A DNA stretch of 61,696 nt, taken from NCBI GenBank assembly GCA_017889725.1, contig JAGGAE010000004.1, positions 1 through 61,696 on the forward strand, given 5' to 3'. Under the pieces are notes generated by a model. It was not told the DNA's origin. It ran no database searches and worked only from the letters and a program-made list of their open reading frames with translations. The translations under genes and the position numbers were made by a program. Positions 1,387 through 56,863 of the stretch are shown here, piece by piece; positions within the stretch are counted from its first letter, which is position 1, and every line of letters begins with the position of its first letter. Source of the stretch: Bacillota bacterium. Lineage in GTDB: Bacteria; Bacillota; Negativicutes; Sporomusales; CTSoil-080.

Positions 1387-3852
1387 CTATTCTGCTTTGG
1401 CTGCGCTGTTCTCCCCATCAGCCGATTTGGCAAGTTCAATAAGTTTGTCGGTATATTCTTTGAGTTTATTTTTCACCAGGTCATGGATACTGCCGCTCGG
1501 ATAAATTCCTTCGGGCGATGCCTCACCAGCGGGAACGCCGGTCAAAATCTCAATGCCCTCGTCAATATTTCTTACCGGATAGATATGGAATTTTCCTTCC
1601 CGCACGGCATCAACAACTTTGTCGCAAAGAGTAAGGTTGTTGATATTCTGATATGGAATAACAACACCCTGTTTACCATTCAGTCCTTTCAGCTTGCAAA
1701 CTTCGAAGAAGCCCTCGATCTTTTCGGTGACTCCGCCGATGGGCTGAATTTCCCCTTTTTGGTTGACGGAGCCAGTAACGGCCAGCTCCTGACGAATAGG
1801 AACTTCCGATAGGCTGGATAATATGGCGTACAACTCGGTGCTGGAGGCACTGTCCCCGTCAACCCCATCATAAAGCTGTTCAAAGGTCAGACTGGCAGTC
1901 AGCGTGAGCGGCTGGCGTTGCGCATATTTTTGTCCGAGATACCCGCTTAGAATGAGAACGCCTTTGCTGTGGCTGGTACCGCTCATTTTGGTTTCGCGCT
2001 CGATGTTGACTACGCCGCTTTTCCCCATATAGGTGTTGGCGGTAATCCTGGACGGCTTGCCGAACATGTACTCGCCTACTGACAACACTGCCAGACCGTT
2101 GACCTGCCCGACTGTTTCCCCGTCCGTATCAATTAGCAGTTTGCCCTCGGCAAACATTTCCTGCAGCCGTTCTTCGTATTTGTTATAGCGGCGCTGCTTT
2201 TCATGTGTGGCGACTTTGATATGATCCTCGTTGACCATTGGACTGTCGTCCGCTCCAGCCCAGGCATCCGCCTCGCATAAGAGTTCAACTACTTCGTTGA
2301 ACTTGGTGGTCAGCTTATTCTGACTGCCAGACACACGGGTGGCATATTCAACCACTTTTTTGACAGCTTTTTTATCAAAGTGCCGCAAGTTTTCCCTGCG
2401 GACAATGGAGGCGACAAAGCTGGTAAGTTTCCCGATGTTTTCGGCATTGTTATCCATCTCGGTATCAAAATCAGCGAATACTTTGAATAGCTTGCGAAAA
2501 TCTTCGTCATAGTTAAACAGCAGCTGATAGAGCTGCGGGTTGCCTATCAAAATGACTTTGACTTTAATAGGAATATATTGCGGTTTAACAGAAGCCATCG
2601 CCAGCATTCCATATTGTTCACCGAGATTTTCAATGTACAGTTTGCCTGTTTTCAGCACCCGTTTTAAAGCTTCCCATGCCCCGATATTGACCAAAAGGTC
2701 GCGAACCTGGAGAATAAGATAACCACCGTTGGCGCGATGAATCGCCCCCGCTTTAACCATGGTAAAGCTGGTGCTGACAACACCCATGCGATTTTCATAT
2801 TCCAGTCGTCCGATTAAGTTGTAATAGGTAGGATTAGGCTCTACCACTACCGGGCTGCCGTCCATATCCCGGTTATTAATTAACAGGTTGATTTCATATT
2901 TATCTTTGCCCGAATCCTGCATGCTCCGACGGAACATGAGAAAGGGATTGGCATCTTCTTCCATCGCCGCGGGTTTAAAGTCGCCGATATTTTTAACAAT
3001 ATCCCCTTTCACGGCTTCGAGGAAGCTGGCTACCTTAGAATACGGCTGATATTTCTCCAGCAGTTCGTCAATAAAGTGACCAACAGCAAACATCCCGACT
3101 TTAGCATCAAGGTTTTTCAGTTCCTCCCTGGCTTCGCGTTCCAGGTGCTGTACCTGATGAATGGCGTTTAGCGCCCGTTCCTGGACGGCCAGCAGTTGCT
3201 TTTCATACTTATCCTTCATCTCCCGGTCGAGGTTCTGAAATTCTTCCTGAGACATAGGCTTGCCCTCCTGAATGGGCATACCAACAAAGCCGGTATTGGT
3301 CCACTGGGGCAGTATCCCTAATTCTTCCGCCTGTTGGTTAAAAAGATCCATGACCTGACTGCGGTTTTCCTGGAATTTCTTCATTACGGTATTCTTAGCC
3401 TGATCGTAATCATCGCCGGTAAACACCTTGGGAATTTCACTCGTCAGGTCTTCTACCAAGTTTTTCATATCCTGTCTTAGCTCACAGCCTAAACCGGCCG
3501 GCAAGGACAACGCGATAGGCTGGCTAGGGTTTTCGAAATTATTAACATAACACCAATCGTCCGGCGTATCCTCGTTAGCGGCCACTTGCGTTACAGCCGC
3601 TTTGGCATACGTCATTTTGCCTGTACCTACAAGGCCGGACAGATAAATGTTATAGCCAAAGCTTTTGGTTCCAAGCCCGAATTTCATGGCTTTAACCGCC
3701 CGTTCCTGGCCTACCATCGCTTCAAGCGGGGCAACCGATTCCGTGGACTCATAGGGAAAAAGCTGATCATCGCAGGTAAACCGAAGTTTATCGGCTGATA
3801 ATTCCTGGCACTTATGCACTTTTTCATCCCCTTTTGTCATTTGTCCAAACAT
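1387..3852 (-). CDS. Lon-like ATP-dependent protease (AAA_32 / S16 family)
   Basis: 821 aa; Walker A-like GLVGTGKMTYAK; Lon catalytic Ser/Lys motifs DGDSASS and GGVTEKIEGF. Confidence 0.88.
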   Translation of the reverse strand: MFGQMTKGDEKVHKCQELSADKLRFTCDDQLFPYESTESVAPLEAMVGQERAVKAMKFGLGTKSFGYNIYLSGLVGTGKMTYAKAAVTQVAANEDTPDDWCYVNNFENPSQPIALSLPAGLGCELRQDMKNLVEDLTSEIPKVFTGDDYDQAKNTVMKKFQENRSQVMDLFNQQAEELGILPQWTNTGFVGMPIQEGKPMSQEEFQNLDREMKDKYEKQLLAVQERALNAIHQVQHLEREAREELKNLDAKVGMFAVGHFIDELLEKYQPYSKVASFLEAVKGDIVKNIGDFKPAAMEEDANPFLMFRRSMQDSGKDKYEINLLINNRDMDGSPVVVEPNPTYYNLIGRLEYENRMGVVSTSFTMVKAGAIHRANGGYLILQVRDLLVNIGAWEALKRVLKTGKLYIENLGEQYGMLAMASVKPQYIPIKVKVILIGNPQLYQLLFNYDEDFRKLFKVFADFDTEMDNNAENIGKLTSFVASIVRRENLRHFDKKAVKKVVEYATRVSGSQNKLTTKFNEVVELLCEADAWAGADDSPMVNEDHIKVATHEKQRRYNKYEERLQEMFAEGKLLIDTDGETVGQVNGLAVLSVGEYMFGKPSRITANTYMGKSGVVNIERETKMSGTSHSKGVLILSGYLGQKYAQRQPLTLTASLTFEQLYDGVDGDSASSTELYAILSSLSEVPIRQELAVTGSVNQKGEIQPIGGVTEKIEGFFEVCKLKGLNGKQGVVIPYQNINNLTLCDKVVDAVREGKFHIYPVRNIDEGIEILTGVPAGEASPEGIYPSGSIHDLVKNKLKEYTDKLIELAKSADGENSAAKAE

Positions 3853-4982: not shown

Positions 4983-6416
4983 CTACATATGTTCCTTGAG
5001 CAGTTTATTCACTACCTCGGGGTTGGCGCGTCCCTTGGTTTCTTTCATAACTTGTCCCACCAAGAAACCAATAGCCCGTTCTTTACCAGCCTTAAAGTCG
5101 GCAACCGACTGCGGGTTGGCGGCTAGAATTCGTTCTACAATGGCAACAATTTCGCCCTCGTTGGAAATCTGGACCAGACCTTCTTCTTTGACAACAGTGT
5201 CCGCATCTTTGCCGCTGGACCACATATTTTCCAGGACCGTCTTTGCGATTTTATTCGTAATGGTTCCTTTATCAAGCAGAGATATAAGTCCGGCCAGCTT
5301 TTCCGGCGTAACCGGGCAGGTTTCGATAAGCTGACCGGAATTGTTCAAAAGGCGCGATACCTCGCCCATCAGCCAGTTGGCAGCAGCTTTGGCTTCAGCC
5401 CCGCTGGCTACAGCGACATCGTAGTATTCGGCCATGGCCCGGCTGGCAGTGATGCTTCCGGCGTCGTAGTCGGACAGACCATAATCCTTCATAAGTCGGG
5501 CCTTACGAGCGTCCGGCAATTCGGGCAGGTTCTTCCTGACCTCTTCCACCCAGTCCGGATCGACTACGATGGGTACAAGGTCTGGTTCAGGGAAATACCT
5601 ATAGTCTTCGGCCTGTTCTTTATTACGCATAGACAGCGTAACGCCCCTGCCGTCATCCCATGAACGGGTTTCCTGAATGACTCTTCCGCCTTCTTCAAGG
5701 ATTTCCGTCTGGCGGTATACTTCGTATTCCAGTCCCTTCTGCACGGCTTTAAAGGAGTTGAGGTTTTTGATTTCAGACTTAGTGCCGAATTTGGTTTGTC
5801 CCTCCGGGCGAAGGGATATATTGGCATCGCAGCGCAGGCTGCCTTCTTCCATTTTACAGTCGGATACGTCGACATATTGCAGAATGGCTTTTATTTTTTC
5901 CAAATAGGCTTTAGCTTCTTCCGGCGAACGAAGGTCGGGCTCGGACACGATCTCCAGAAGCGGCACTCCGGTACGGTTGTAGTCGACCAGGGCATAGTCA
6001 GACTTATTAATGGTACCTGCGTGCACGAGTTTGCCCGCGTCTTCTTCCATATGTACACGGGTAATACCGATACGTCGCGTCTTTCCATTGACTTCTATAT
6101 CGAGATAGCCGTTGACAGCGATAGGCAGGTCATACTGCGAAGTTTGAAAGTTCTTGGGCAAATCCGGATAATAGTAATTTTTGCGGTCAAACTTGCTAAA
6201 CGGCAGTATTTCACAATTGAGCGCCAGTCCGGTACGGACGGCGAATTCCAGAACTTTGGCGTTAAAAACCGGAAGTACGCCCGGCAATCCTAAACAGACA
6301 GGGCAGACATTGGTGTTTTGTTCCGCGCCAAACTTGGTCGAACAGCCGCAAAATATTTTGGACTGCGTTTTTAGTTCGGTATGGACTTCCAGACCGATGA
6401 CAACTTCGTAGGCCAT
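4983..6416 (-). CDS. gatB: Asp-tRNA(Asn)/Glu-tRNA(Gln) amidotransferase subunit B
   Basis: [26 protein letters not shown]... full-length GatB signature; in gatCAB order. Confidence 0.97.
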
Positions 6417-6419
6417 AGC

Positions 6420-7883
6420 TTATGCTCCCCCCAGCGGCGCAAGGCGCTTATAATAATCGTTATTTTGTTCAAAGGTATAGGCCGCTTTGAGCACATCGCT
6501 TTCTCCCAGCGGTTTGCCGATAATCTGCAGGCCGATCGGCATATGTCCCTTAAAGCCGCACGGCAGGGAAATAGCCGGTACACCGGCAAGGTTGACAGGC
6601 ACGGTGCACACGTCCTGCAGGTACATGGCCAGTGGATCATTGATTTTTTCACCAATTTTGAAGGCAGTAGTAGGCGCAATAGGTGCTACCAGCACATCAA
6701 CATCTTCAAAGGCTTTATCAAAGTCACGCTTGATGAGCGTCCGCACTTTCAAAGCTTTTAGGTAATAAGCGTCGTAATAACCGGAACTTAAGGCATAGTT
6801 GCCCAACATGATACGGCGTCGCACTTCAGCACCAAAGCCTTGAGTACGGGTTTGGGTGGCCATAGAGATAAGATCCTCACCTTTTTCCCGCTGGCCAAAA
6901 CCAACACCGACATAGCGCGCCAGATTGGAGCTGGCTTCAGCGGTAGCCACCATGTAGTAGGTAGCCAGTGCATACTCGGTATGAGGCATGGACACTTCCT
7001 TGTACTCAGCACCCAAGGCCTTTAATTGTTCAATAGCCGCATAGACGGCCTTTTCCACGTCCGGGTCCATCCCGGCAACAAAGTATTCTTTAGGCAAGCC
7101 GATTTTCATGCCCCGGATATCCGGCACCAGCGCTTGGGTATAGTCCGGCACCGGCGCGTTAATGGAGGTAGAATCGCGGTGATCGTAGCCGGCGATGGCG
7201 TTCATCACCAGGGCGCAGTCAGTAACGTCGCGGGTGATGGGTCCGATTTGGTCAAGCGACGACGCATACGCCACAAGACCGTAACGGGATACACGGCCAT
7301 AGGTTGGTTTAAGACCGACAACACCGCAATATGCAGCGGGAAGACGGATAGAACCGCCGGTATCAGACCCCAGCGCCCACACGGCTTGTCCTGCAGCAAC
7401 GGCCGCAGCTGAACCGCCGCTTGAGCCGCCGGGAACGGTATCGGTGTCCCACGGATTACGTGATACCTTAAACGACGAATTTTCCGTAGAGGAGCCCATG
7501 GCGAATTCATCCATGTTGGCCTTACCAACAAGGACGGTCTGCTGGGCATTCAGCTTTTCCGTGACCGTAGCATTGTAGGGCGGAACAAAATTAGCCAGAA
7601 TTTGCGAGCCGCAGGTTGTCTTGGTTCCTTCGACACAGATATTGTCCTTTAATGCTCCGGGAATGCCTGCTAAGGCGGGCAGTTCTTCATTGGCCTTGAG
7701 TTTTTCATCTACACGGCGGGCTTGGGCCAGCGCGTTTTCTTTGGTCAGGCTGATAAAGGCCTGCACTTTATCTTCTACCGCGTCGATGCGGGTATATATC
7801 GCTTCAGCCACTTCCACTGCCGAAACTTCTTTGGTTGTTAGCTTATCTTTAAGCTCATGGGCTGTCAGTTTATAAAGCTCCAC
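6420..7883 (-). CDS. gatA: Asp-tRNA(Asn)/Glu-tRNA(Gln) amidotransferase subunit A
   Basis: Amidase signature [36 protein letters not shown]. Confidence 0.97.
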
Positions 7884-8233: not shown

Positions 8234-10303
<2,070 letters not shown>

Positions 10304-12523
10304 TTACACCCGTGTCAGCGGTGCAAACTGAACCATTAACTGACGGATGCCCATTCCCGGAAAAGCAACTTTTATTTCCTGCTGGTCGCCGGTACCCCTC
10401 ACCTCGACAACAGTACCCAGCCCCCATTTGGCGTGCTGGGCCTTATCCCCGGCTTTCCATTCACCGCCAGCCCTCGGCACAGCGGCTCTTGGCGCACTGC
10501 CTCCGGCCTGAGGCATGGGCCGCCGGGAAGGGGTGCTGACTGGCCTTGTGGCCGAGCCGTACATGCTATTCGACGATTTGGCCTGAAAGGTTTGCCGAAC
10601 ATGCCGCTCAACCAGATTTTCCGGGATTTCACTGATAAAGCGGGATGGCGGATACATGACAGTATTGCCGTATATGGTACGCATACGGGCATTAGTGATA
10701 TAAAGCTTGGTGCGGGCGCGGGTAATGCCGACGTAGCAGAGACGCCGCTCTTCTTCAATCTCGCTCTCGTTCATCAGCGTACGGGAATGCGGGAAAATTC
10801 CTTCTTCCAGCCCGGCTAAAAAGACGATGGGAAACTCCAGTCCTTTGGCGGAGTGCAGCGTCATTAAGGTTACTCTATCTTCCGATAAATCAGCAGTATC
10901 GACATCCGACACCAGGGCTACCTGACTGAGAAAGTTTTCCAGAGTGGGTTCCATGTCTTCAGTAGCAAAATTTTTCGCTACACTTAGAAGTTCCCTCAAG
11001 TTCTCGATCCGTGTCTCGGACTGAGGCGTCTGCTCGTTTTCCAACTCAGTAAGATAGCCGGTATCTTGCAGTACCGCGCGGATAAGCTCTTCCACTGGCG
11101 TCTGCTCGGCTTTGGTAATAAGCTTTATCAACAGTTCGCCGAGCCCCTCCAGTTGATTTTTGGCCCGGGAGGTAAGTCCGGGGACAGCGTCAGGGTTGGA
11201 CACCGCGTCAAATAGCGTGGCACCCGTCGAATTGGCATACTCGGTCATGCGTGCAATACTGGTATCGCCGATGCCGCGGCGCGGAACATTGATAATCCGA
11301 AGCAAACTAATAGCATCAGAAGGGTTAAAGATTACCCGTATATAGGCCAAAATATCTTTTACCTCTTTGCGGTCATAGAACTTAAGCCCGCCTACCATGG
11401 TGTACGGAATTCCGGCGCGCATAAAGGCTTCTTCTACAACCCGGGACTGCGCGTTGGTACGATACAGTACCGCCATGTCACTATATGGAGTGCGATACAC
11501 AGTATTATGCTTAATGAGCATTTCTGTAATAAAGTTGGACTCGTCGCGTTCATCGGTTGCCAGGTAATGGGTAACTTGTTCTCCGGCAGTGTTGTCCGTC
11601 CACAGCGATTTCGGTTTACGGTCTGAGTTATTCTCAATCAGCGTATTCGCCGCATCCAGAATGTTCTGGGTGGAACGATAGTTTTGCTCCAGTTTGACAA
11701 CCTTGGCATCAGGGTAATCGCCTTCAAAATCCAGGATGTTTCTGATGTCCGCACCCCGCCAGGCATAAATACTTTGGTCGATATCGCCCACAACAAAAAT
11801 GTTGCGATATTTCGCCGCCAGCATGCTGGCTAATAGGTATTGGGCCCGGTTGGTATCCTGGTATTCGTCAATAAGGATATAGCGGAATTTTTCCTGATAC
11901 TTCGCGAGCACCTCGACGTTATCTTCCAGAAGGCGAACGGTCAACATAAGGAGATCGTCAAAATCCAGAGCATTGTGTAACCGGAGGCGCATTTGGTACA
12001 TCTTGTACACTTCGGCTACCTTTTTCTGATAAAAATTATCGGCTTCCCGGTCAAACGCATGAAAATCAGTCAGCGTATTTTTGGCGTTGGATATAGTCGC
12101 TTGTACTCCATTCGGTGGGAAATGTTTATCGTCTAGGTTGAGCTCTTTGAGACATTGCTTGATCAGCGTCTGGCTGTCCCCGGTGTCATAGATGACAAAA
12201 TTACGGTCGTAGCCGGGCAAATTATCAATTTCCAGCCGCAAAAACTTCGCACAAAAGGCATGAAAGGTGCTGAGCCATATATTCTTAGCCGTGTCGCCGA
12301 CAATGGCTTGCACCCGTTCTTTCATTTCTGCCGCCGCTTTATTGGTAAAGGTAATGGCCAGTATGTTATACGGCCGCACTCCCTGGTCAAGCAGATACGC
12401 AATCCGGCTGGTCAGTACGCTGGTTTTACCTGAACCTGCACCGGCAATAACCAAGAGTGGACCGTCAACATGAGTGGCAGCCTCGACTTGCCCCGGGTTT
12501 AATCTGTTAAGTATATTGCTCAT
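10304..12523 (-). CDS. pcrA: UvrD/PcrA family ATP-dependent DNA helicase
   Basis: GAGSGKTSVLTSRIAYLL, DEYQDTNRAQY, VGDIDQSIYAWRGADIRNIL helicase motifs; adjacent to ligA as is common in Firmicutes. Confidence 0.96.
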   Translation of the reverse strand: MSNILNRLNPGQVEAATHVDGPLLVIAGAGSGKTSVLTSRIAYLLDQGVRPYNILAITFTNKAAAEMKERVQAIVGDTAKNIWLSTFHAFCAKFLRLEIDNLPGYDRNFVIYDTGDSQTLIKQCLKELNLDDKHFPPNGVQATISNAKNTLTDFHAFDREADNFYQKKVAEVYKMYQMRLRLHNALDFDDLLMLTVRLLEDNVEVLAKYQEKFRYILIDEYQDTNRAQYLLASMLAAKYRNIFVVGDIDQSIYAWRGADIRNILDFEGDYPDAKVVKLEQNYRSTQNILDAANTLIENNSDRKPKSLWTDNTAGEQVTHYLATDERDESNFITEMLIKHNTVYRTPYSDMAVLYRTNAQSRVVEEAFMRAGIPYTMVGGLKFYDRKEVKDILAYIRVIFNPSDAISLLRIINVPRRGIGDTSIARMTEYANSTGATLFDAVSNPDAVPGLTSRAKNQLEGLGELLIKLITKAEQTPVEELIRAVLQDTGYLTELENEQTPQSETRIENLRELLSVAKNFATEDMEPTLENFLSQVALVSDVDTADLSEDRVTLMTLHSAKGLEFPIVFLAGLEEGIFPHSRTLMNESEIEEERRLCYVGITRARTKLYITNARMRTIYGNTVMYPPSRFISEIPENLVERHVRQTFQAKSSNSMYGSATRPVSTPSRRPMPQAGGSAPRAAVPRAGGEWKAGDKAQHAKWGLGTVVEVRGTGDQQEIKVAFPGMGIRQLMVQFAPLTRV

Positions 12524-12679: not shown

Positions 12680-13891
12680 TTGGATGTACTGGACAAGCTG
12701 CAAATTTTAGGCGAAGGGGCAAAATACGATGTGTGCGCGTCTACTGCCACAAAAAGCAGTAAAATTATCAATCCGGCAATAGGCAGCACCAGTCCCAGCG
12801 GGATTTGCCACTCTTTTACCCCGGACGGACGCTGTATTTCGTTATTTAAAGTGCTATTAACCAATTACTGCGAGAAAGACTGCGCCTATTGCCCCAACCG
12901 TATTGATCGTAATGTGCCCCGCAGCCGCTTTACCGCGGACGAACTTGTAAACGTGTTTATGGAGTTCTACCGGCGCAATTACGTCGAAGGTTTATTTTTA
13001 AGCTCGGGTATTTTTCATTCTACTTCCGCTACAATGGATGAAATGATTAAAGTCGCCGAAATCCTACGGAATCACCACAAATTCGGCGGCTATATCCACC
13101 TGAAAATCCTGCCAGGATCCAGCGCCGCCGAAATTCAAGCAGCAGCAGCGGTGGCTGACCGGATCTCGCTGAATATGGAAGCACCGTCGGACCGGCATCT
13201 GGCAAAGCTCAGCCGAACCAAACAGTACGGGCCTGAGATTATAGGCACCATGGCAAAAATCGGTGCCTATGTCGCCCGTTACAAAGATGTCAGCCATACT
13301 ACTCAGTATATTGTCGGCGCAGCCCAGGAAAGCGACCGGGATATATTAACTTCCGCCGCCAGTCTGTATAAAGGCTATGCCTTAAAACGGGCCTATTTCA
13401 GCGCCTTTCAGCCAGTCAAGCATACGCCGCTGGAAACGGTGTCAGCTACGCCGCTCATCCGGGAAAATCGGCTGTATCAGTCTGATTTTCTCTTACGCCT
13501 ATACGGGTTTCATCTTGGCGAATTCGTCTTTGACGCAGGCGGCAATCTGGATCCTGACATAGACCCTAAGCTGGCCTATGCTCTTAACCACCCCGAGCTC
13601 TTTCCTCTGGATATTAACCAGGCCTCCTATCAGCAGCTATTAAAAGTGCCGGGTATCGGCCCCCGCTCGGCAAGCCGTATTGTTCAGGTTCGACGGACGC
13701 ACCGGCTGAATGACCCCCGCGAGTTAAAAAACGCCGGTGTGGTATTGAAACGTTCGCTGTCATTTATCACGCTTAACGGACAATACTTCGGCGACCGGCG
13801 TCTTTTAGACAAGCCCCGCCGCCAAACATATCAGCAGCTCGCGCTCTGGGGTGACGAACGCGACCTTTATTCATCGCTTATTACGGGGTGA
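12680..13891 (+). CDS. putative DNA modification/repair radical SAM protein (TIGR03916-like) with C-terminal helix-hairpin-helix
   Basis: CEKDCAYC radical SAM motif and LLKVPGIGPRSASRIVQVRR HhH. Likely start TTG at 12680 (LDVLDKLQILGEGAKYDVC); the track start 12590 would overlap the promoter. Confidence 0.85.
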   Translation: MDVLDKLQILGEGAKYDVCASTATKSSKIINPAIGSTSPSGICHSFTPDGRCISLFKVLLTNYCEKDCAYCPNRIDRNVPRSRFTADELVNVFMEFYRRNYVEGLFLSSGIFHSTSATMDEMIKVAEILRNHHKFGGYIHLKILPGSSAAEIQAAAAVADRISLNMEAPSDRHLAKLSRTKQYGPEIIGTMAKIGAYVARYKDVSHTTQYIVGAAQESDRDILTSAASLYKGYALKRAYFSAFQPVKHTPLETVSATPLIRENRLYQSDFLLRLYGFHLGEFVFDAGGNLDPDIDPKLAYALNHPELFPLDINQASYQQLLKVPGIGPRSASRIVQVRRTHRLNDPRELKNAGVVLKRSLSFITLNGQYFGDRRLLDKPRRQTYQQLALWGDERDLYSSLITG

Positions 13892-14716: not shown

Positions 14717-14737
14717 GTATTAAAATCTCATAATTAG

Positions 14738-14967
14738 AAAGCAATGACAGGGAAAGTACCAACGTAACTTCCTCTTCAGAGAGCCGGACATGGTGCAAAC
14801 CGGCAGGAAGACGCCTGGGAAAGCCCCCCTGGAGCCGTAGGCCGAAACCAAAGTAAGCCGCTCCGCAACCCGGCGTTAACGGGAAAAAGTTGAGCCGTTT
14901 GGCTAATTTAGGTGGTACCGCGGGAACAATAATCTCGTCCTTCTTAGGACGGGATTTTTTATTTTTA
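14738..14967 (+). ncRNA. T-box leader (tRNA-sensing riboswitch), specifier best read as GCC (Ala)
   Basis: AGTA (14755-14758) opposite GAA (14819-14821) as a loop-E-like specifier loop; distal CTTCCT/AGGAAG helix; CAGAGAG bulge and GCCGG/CCGGC apical stem with GGTG loop; T-box motif GGTGGTACCGCG at 14911; terminator CTCGTCCTtcttAGGACGGGATTTTTT. Confidence 0.93.
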
Positions 14968-55754: not shown

Positions 55755-55869
55755 CGTATCACCAGCGTTTGCATATTATACTCGCTAATATATCTAGTAT
55801 TGTAACTCGTAAAAAATAAAATTACCAGCGGGATTTTTTTCGTATAAAAATATTACAGCCGGCCATACT

Positions 55870-56265
55870 AAGCTCGTAAGGGTTCGTAATGGTCGAGCCA
55901 AGATTGATATCTGATCTCTTGGGGTTGGGTATCAGTCGGCCAAAGATAGGTATCAGGTCGGCCCGGCTTGGTGCTTGTCGGCGGGAAGATCATTATATGT
56001 CTTGTAAGGCTGTACGGCAGCCCAACTGTTGTCGTGTGGTCAAAAGGGATGTATAATGGTCGAGCTAAGACTGTCAAGGGTTCCGCAGGTCGTCCGGGAA
56101 CCTCTTAGGGGTCTATCGTTGTCGGGAGATTGCGGTAGGTTTCATAGGTACTCTTGGCAGTCGAGCAAAGGTCGGCGTTTGTTGCGTAATGCTTGTGCGT
56201 AGTCGAAAGATTGCGTATAGGTATGTAGGGATGAGCGCTGGCTGTAGCGAAGATCATTACGGGCT
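55870..56265. repeat. array of degenerate GTCG-containing repeats, function unknown
   Basis: 11 GTCG on + strand and no CGAC; recurrent core near GTCGAGCCAAGATTG at 20-54 bp spacing; G-rich + strand. Confidence 0.7.
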
Positions 56266-56332
56266 CTTTCTATATTTTTCCTACAATAAATAACTCATGC
56301 AACGAAAAATACATTATAATAAAACTTGTACA

Positions 56333-56361
56333 ATGACAAATTTATCTTGCTATGTTATAAT
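56333..56361 (+). promoter_or_regulatory. sigma-A promoter of the DUF1858 gene
   Basis: ATGACA-N17-TATAAT. Confidence 0.65.
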
Positions 56362-56749: not shown

Positions 56750-56863
56750 ATGGGATTCGGTCGTTTCGGCTGCGGGGGTGGCGGTAGCGCAATGGCTATT
56801 GTCATCATAATCATCATACTTCTTCTGCTATTCATGGGAGAAGAAAGTTCCGCCTCGATTTAA
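56750..56863 (+). CDS. 37-aa Gly-rich single-TM small protein (YjcZ-like layout)
   Basis: AGAAGGAGG RBS; MGFGRFGCGGGGSAMAIVIIIIILLLLFMGEESSASI; below the ORF-track length cutoff. Confidence 0.7.
   Translation: MGFGRFGCGGGGSAMAIVIIIIILLLLFMGEESSASI

Follow-up and report, generated by a model that had tools for sequence, protein, structure and literature searches.

What is the run of GTCG tetramers that lies between lgt and a DUF1858 gene in this Bacillota genome? The window, by which we mean the whole 61,696-nt stretch of DNA that was analysed, had been read in an earlier note as holding 11 GTCG on its + strand (at 55892, 55935, 55957, 55977, 56031, 56059, 56089, 56121, 56160, 56171 and 56202) and no CGAC within a 396-nt segment (55870-56265), with 24 G and 12 C in 55921-55980. 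These positions and counts proved exact, and the flanking genes are those the note had named (lgt, PF01790; DUF1858, PF08984). Dinucleotide-preserving shuffles, a check that the note had proposed, gave 4.5 ± 1.8 GTCG, with P(≥11) = 0.001. Among the best eight 396-nt stretches listed (step 20, both strands), only those overlapping the element reached a count of 11.

Folding of the + strand (55860-56280) gave an energy of -192.7 kcal/mol, compared to a mean of -130.5 kcal/mol for shuffles (z = -10.95), while the minus strand of the same segment gave z = -1.47. One third of the predicted pairs are G-U, and the RNA's own strand folded better than its complement in all homologues compared (39/39 and 37/37). 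The molecule under selection is therefore an RNA, and not a DNA cruciform. RNAalifold, applied to 39 diverse full-length copies from relatives (alignment A1), returned 141 pairs, 75 of them with compensatory change. Under this structure 98.7% of cells paired, a value equalled by none of 500 shuffles, and slid versions of the structure brought pairing down to 33-46%. The same kind of fold was obtained from a phylum-wide alignment (49 sequences, mean identity 61%), again with 141 pairs, 96.1% of cells paired and changes on both sides in 125 of the 141; it was lost in column shuffles. The locus is thus almost certainly a structured RNA, with a closing stem and five arms (Table 1). Like other large, ornate bacterial non-coding RNAs, it is hundreds of nucleotides long and has a complex fold that carries compensatory changes.

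Table 1. Features of the RNA and of its predicted promoter (window coordinates).
Feature	Position	Strand	Basis
-35 element GTATA of a predicted forespore-type (sigF/sigG-like) promoter	55842-55846	+	sequence; conserved in copies; ssp match
-10 element GGCCATACTA (predicted)	55861-55870	+	17 nt past GTATA; fits GGNNANAHTR and CATNNTA; for divergent copies, 7-10 nt ahead of the RNA
Structured non-coding RNA, ~400 nt	55876-56275 (ends approximate)	+	folding z, homologues, covariation
P1 closing stem, 16 bp	55879-55894 with 56252-56267	+	99.5% of cells paired; 7 pairs with double changes
Arm A, 17-bp hairpin, variable loop	55902-55937	+	double changes in 13/17 pairs
Arm B, 3 + 14 bp hairpin, AAA bulge at foot	55939-55982	+	double changes in 9/14 main-helix pairs
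Arm C, 15 + 14 bp, internal loop, conserved apex	55988-56061	+	double changes in 10/15 and 4/14
Arm D, 18-bp foot; variable insert 56085-56112; GNRA-type hairpin 56113-56138	56064-56166	+	double changes in 10/18 and 5/10
Arm E, 16 + 15 bp, GAAA loop cap (56205-56208)	56170-56243	+	double changes in 13/16 and 4/15; region modelled by R1

How does this fold account for the GTCG units? They belong to paired helices and recur as three kinds of motif within the RNA: multiloop joints (GUC-GRGC-NAA-GA), GNRA-capped hairpins (GUC-GNRA-GAU) and stem positions. Projected on the fold, the tetramers at 55892, 55935, 55977, 56059 and 56160 fall in interhelix joints, each of which runs from the terminal GUC of one helix through a G-rich linker and an A-rich bulge to the AGA that opens the next arm. 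Those at 56121 and 56202 fall in hairpins with GNRA-type loops, and those at 56031 and 56171 within stems; 55957 sits at the edge of the arm B loop, and 56089 belongs to the variable portion of arm D. The recurrence seen in the earlier reading is therefore real, as motifs of one folded RNA, and its tandem or array character is not. Tandem Repeats Finder gave only a single 20-bp pair, and we rejected a tandem repeat, minisatellite or CRISPR array, the last in agreement with the note. A coding element, which the note had also denied, was rejected as well: depending on the homologue, the longest ORF on the + strand is anywhere between 19 and 122 aa in length, and pairing spans most of the sequence. 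The note had guessed at a protein-binding array, a structured RNA or a decayed minisatellite; fold and covariation bear out the second, and the other two found no support.

The 3' third of the RNA (116 nt) was used to build a covariance model, R1, whose E-values are rough. In many copies R1 also gives weak matches to the 5' part (32-43 bits), which suggests that the arms may share an origin or motifs. In a subtype from other classes of the phylum, seen as the 3' third in L163, L164, L166 and L168, the foot of arm E differs (GUCGAACGAACCAU...GGUGCAAGGUAGAUC).

The search in related genomes that the note had called for returned blastn homologues in 30 of 61 genomes, most of them near full length and often several per genome, with up to 14 full or partial copies in one. 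The note's refuting case, homologues without the motif at this locus, does not hold: in several families the RNA is again found next to lgt and/or DUF1858. The copy in the window is 92% identical to its orthologue in a sister genome and 83-85% identical to those in two other families, compared to 81% for a paralogue in the same genome. As orthologues across families are closer than this paralogue, the loci appear to be old and vertically inherited, with occasional amplification. Copy numbers are lower bounds because copies often lie at contig ends; contigs that end inside an RNA copy (G002 C6, C24, C56, C125 and C146; G001 C2) show that draft genomes under-count the RNA. A third copy in the window's own genome (L032:2867-3219; G000:C88:27880-28216) lacks the distal part of arm E and is a decayed or variant paralogue. 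G003 has a tandem pair of full-length copies (L019:1485-1895 and 2028-2444), separated by about 130 nt and each with a promoter of its own.

The neighbours of the copies vary widely. The 200 flanking proteins represent 152 families and are oriented almost at random, no conserved partner gene was found among the direct neighbours, and the downstream gene is sense to the RNA in 43 cases and antisense in 56. Copies do not hold the fixed place and orientation before one gene family that would mark a cis-regulatory leader or riboswitch. Such variable neighbours point to a stand-alone gene, whose RNA very probably acts in trans. Terminator-like hairpins follow 41 of 61 copies, compared to 17 of 61 random stretches; the same scan found none after the window's copy.

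Some copies lie in unusual surroundings. One locus, L058 (G031:C1:2451900-2468000), has seven partial copies in about 10 kb (3028-3160, 6159-6286, 7717-7843, 8820-8922, 10184-10276, 11526-11787 and 13015-13146), mostly the 3' third of the RNA with its terminator. They adjoin repeated fragments of a hemagglutinin-like frame (weak DUF637 match) and small unknown genes, and the locus resembles an array in which toxin-tip/immunity modules have been displaced, with junctions that lie within the RNA. Virus-like contigs also carry copies (L210:2187-2582 and L211:5471-5866, both IMG/VR contigs, and L209:2-368). That in L210 is full length and lies between the large terminase gene and a portal gene that is split over two frames. 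The Negativicutes pattern found three viral contigs and the pattern for other classes none, and the phage and plasmid collections gave no match to the RNA.

When is the RNA made? Alignment of 61 copies at the RNA 5' end revealed a common GNAT at -35, a gap of 17 nt and then (C/G)ATA(A/C)TA, that is, a promoter of the form GNAT(A/G)-N17-(C/G)ATA(A/C)TA about 8 nt upstream of the RNA. The G.AT of the -35 element stands at a fixed spacing (within one base) in 51 of 54 scored copies, and the ATA(A/C)TA of the -10 element is near invariant in the 61. Promoters recognised by sigG and sigF of B. subtilis carry GNATR with CATNNTA or GGNNANAHTR. A matrix trained only on the RNA promoters was then run on the upstream regions of 30 ssp genes, located with an HMM in the window's genome and its relatives. 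The mean score was 10.8, compared to 0.24 for 278 control ORFs (p = 2.4e-15), and the matched sites were mostly 55-77 nt before the start codon; that in the window's own genome (L193) is GGTATGGCTCGGTTCGTTTAAGCCATGCTA. For 36 divergent copies the best site ended 6-10 nt upstream of the RNA in most (p = 3e-19 against controls taken farther upstream), 89% scored above the 95% level of those controls, and 18 fitted the sigF -10 element GGNNANAHTR. SigF and SigG promoters overlap in C. difficile (PMC7438776). As would be expected of a forespore RNA, the element thus has a promoter that is, judged by its sequence, of the sigF/sigG type, and expression in the forespore is highly likely on this basis.

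If the RNA is made in the forespore, is it confined to spore formers? With R1, 39 of 251 genomes in the class and 144 of 399 in the phylum were RNA-positive. A search of the same genomes for the small acid-soluble spore protein SASP (PF00269) was positive in 53 and 344, respectively. All 39 and all 144 RNA-positive genomes had SASP, and R1 found the RNA in 0 of 198 (class) and 0 of 55 (phylum) genomes lacking it (Fisher p = 3e-34 and 3e-12, both overstated because the genomes are related). Among SASP-positive genomes, 14 in the class and 200 in the phylum sample gave no R1 match. Divergence was rejected as the cause, as a laxer search of 18 such genomes, run without a positive control of its own, still found no copy. 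The RNA is therefore not needed for sporulation as such. Its hosts are Negativicutes and other classes of the phylum, and the 3' motif occurs in named records of Propionispora, Lucifera butyrica, Pelosinus, Sporomusa ovata, S. acidovorans, S. malonica, Anaerospora hongkongensis and several MAGs. Among the SASP-positive genomes of one genus of the order, some keep the RNA and some have no detectable copy (G008, G022, G025 and G027 versus G017, G021, G023 and G024), a natural comparison for its function.

Taken together, the data make it likely that a stand-alone gene of spore-forming Bacillota here encodes a large RNA of a new class, which the forespore would produce and which would act in trans, perhaps as a scaffold. 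Other explanations differ in what they make of the same evidence. A role as a cis-acting leader or attenuator for the DUF1858 gene is suggested by the position of this gene, 124 nt downstream on the same strand, and by the same arrangement at six other loci. We rejected this reading on the variable neighbours: most copies have others, the downstream gene is antisense in 56 of 99 cases, and the DUF1858 gene has a TATAAT-type promoter of its own in between, near 56333, which would serve it. It can be given hardly any weight. (Beyond DUF1858, at 56750-56863 on the + strand, lies a 37-aa Gly-rich, hydrophobic small ORF reminiscent of small spore proteins of the YjcZ kind; Pfam gave no such match.) A second reading, that another sigma factor drives a vegetative or general stress RNA which merely co-occurs with sporulation, is improbable. 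The -10 ATA(A/C)TA is partly TATAAT-like, and the co-occurrence of RNA and SASP is confounded by phylogeny, but the -35 element is GNAT(A/G) at fixed spacing and not TTGACA, the RNA-promoter matrix also picks out ssp promoters, and half of the divergent copies fit the sigF -10 element.

Could the element instead be a selfish mobile repeat (MITE-like or REP-type) whose fold serves its own copying? The high copy number, the near-identical recent copies in G031, the copies in prophage-like contigs and the array of partial 3' copies all fit such a repeat. Its positions appear to be old, however, as the identities of the lgt/DUF1858 copies indicate, nearly all copies have their own promoter at the RNA start, the fold is selected on a single strand, the restriction to SASP-positive genomes is strict, and no transposase link was seen among the named flanks, which are annotated in part. 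We consider a mobile repeat a little less probable still than a different sigma factor. The strongest competitor, although itself unlikely, keeps the forespore RNA and replaces the scaffold with an antisense or base-pairing regulator of mRNAs, as proposed for CsfG and Bvs196. The predicted promoter type and cell compartment are as for these two RNAs (PMC9147052), and the molecule's variable tips, together with the variable region in arm D, might offer exposed seeds. Against this, the molecule is nearly all paired (141 pairs in ~390 nt), and conservation lies in the joints and internal loops, the loops of arms A and B being unconserved. Little conserved single strand is left, which makes base-pairing regulation less likely.

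A trans-acting scaffold could work as follows. RNA polymerase with sigF and/or sigG would transcribe the RNA in the forespore, and the RNA would fold into a compact star held by GNRA loops and the repeated A-rich joints. It would then act in trans as a stable scaffold in the developing spore, either protein-bound, as OLE is, or self-assembled, as in the cages of ROOL and GOLLD. A high dose may matter, as many genomes have several dispersed copies. By analogy with these RNAs, a scaffold or ribonucleoprotein role is a tentative proposal, to which we give somewhat less than an even chance. Equally speculative is the fuller picture of a five-armed spore RNA machine, made only in the forespore and often encoded by several genes, that would self-assemble or nucleate a ribonucleoprotein in the spore core and aid dormancy, protection or germination across much of the spore-forming Bacillota. 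If our reading is right, Rfam 15 lacks a conserved RNA of ~400 nt that 144 of the 344 sampled SASP-bearing genomes of the phylum possess. It would then join the few RNAs with a link to the spore itself, and the large ornate bacterial RNAs, a small set, would gain a new architecture. As its hosts include genera with cultured species (Sporomusa, Pelosinus, Propionispora, Anaerospora and Lucifera), it is directly testable.

How does the RNA compare to known systems? Searches with cmscan of the window, 13 other loci and one divergent copy against Rfam 15 (4227 families) gave no match at gathering level over the RNA, and below gathering only matches at chance level (E up to 10 or 1). The class is absent from Rfam 15, and we found no earlier description of it in the open-access papers searched. 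The sole Rfam match in the window is a T-box leader (14735-14945, + strand).

Bvs196 of Bacillus is 294 nt long, and CsfG is smaller. The RNA described here, at ~400 nt and with five arms, differs from both by description, and it occurs in Negativicutes and other classes, whereas they were described in Bacilli. Like them, it is an independent RNA gene with, as predicted here, the same promoter type. CsfG and Bvs196 (S547) are reported to be under sigF/sigG control in the forespore (PMC9147052), and would be its closest functional analogues (PMC9147052; PMC12456014). Deletion of Bvs196 lowered the heat and UV resistance of spores (PMC9147052), so a forespore RNA can matter.

In size and ornateness the RNA resembles OLE, a large, conserved RNA of anaerobic or extremophilic Bacillota. 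OLE differs in its length (~600 nt), sequence and fold and binds Oap proteins at the membrane, and no Rfam OLE match was found here. The raiA motif RNA, also conserved and structured and abundant in Bacillota, is not known to be restricted to spore formers. It is shorter (~205 nt) and has another fold, and no Rfam raiA match was found here; its C. difficile member, ModT, affects development (PMC11706538). ROOL and GOLLD RNAs form homo-oligomeric cages (PMC12286853). They share with our RNA a large multi-arm form without a fixed protein partner gene, but they are longer and borne by phages or prophages, whereas ours is mainly chromosomal, tied to spore formers and without an Rfam match. Finally, GC-IGR surveys have yielded mobile/repeat sequence candidates (MRSC) that, like the RNA here, have several structured copies per genome (PMC11109978). 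The example given there is a single long stem in dozens of copies, sometimes near transposases, whereas the RNA described here has five arms, its own promoter and orthologous positions.
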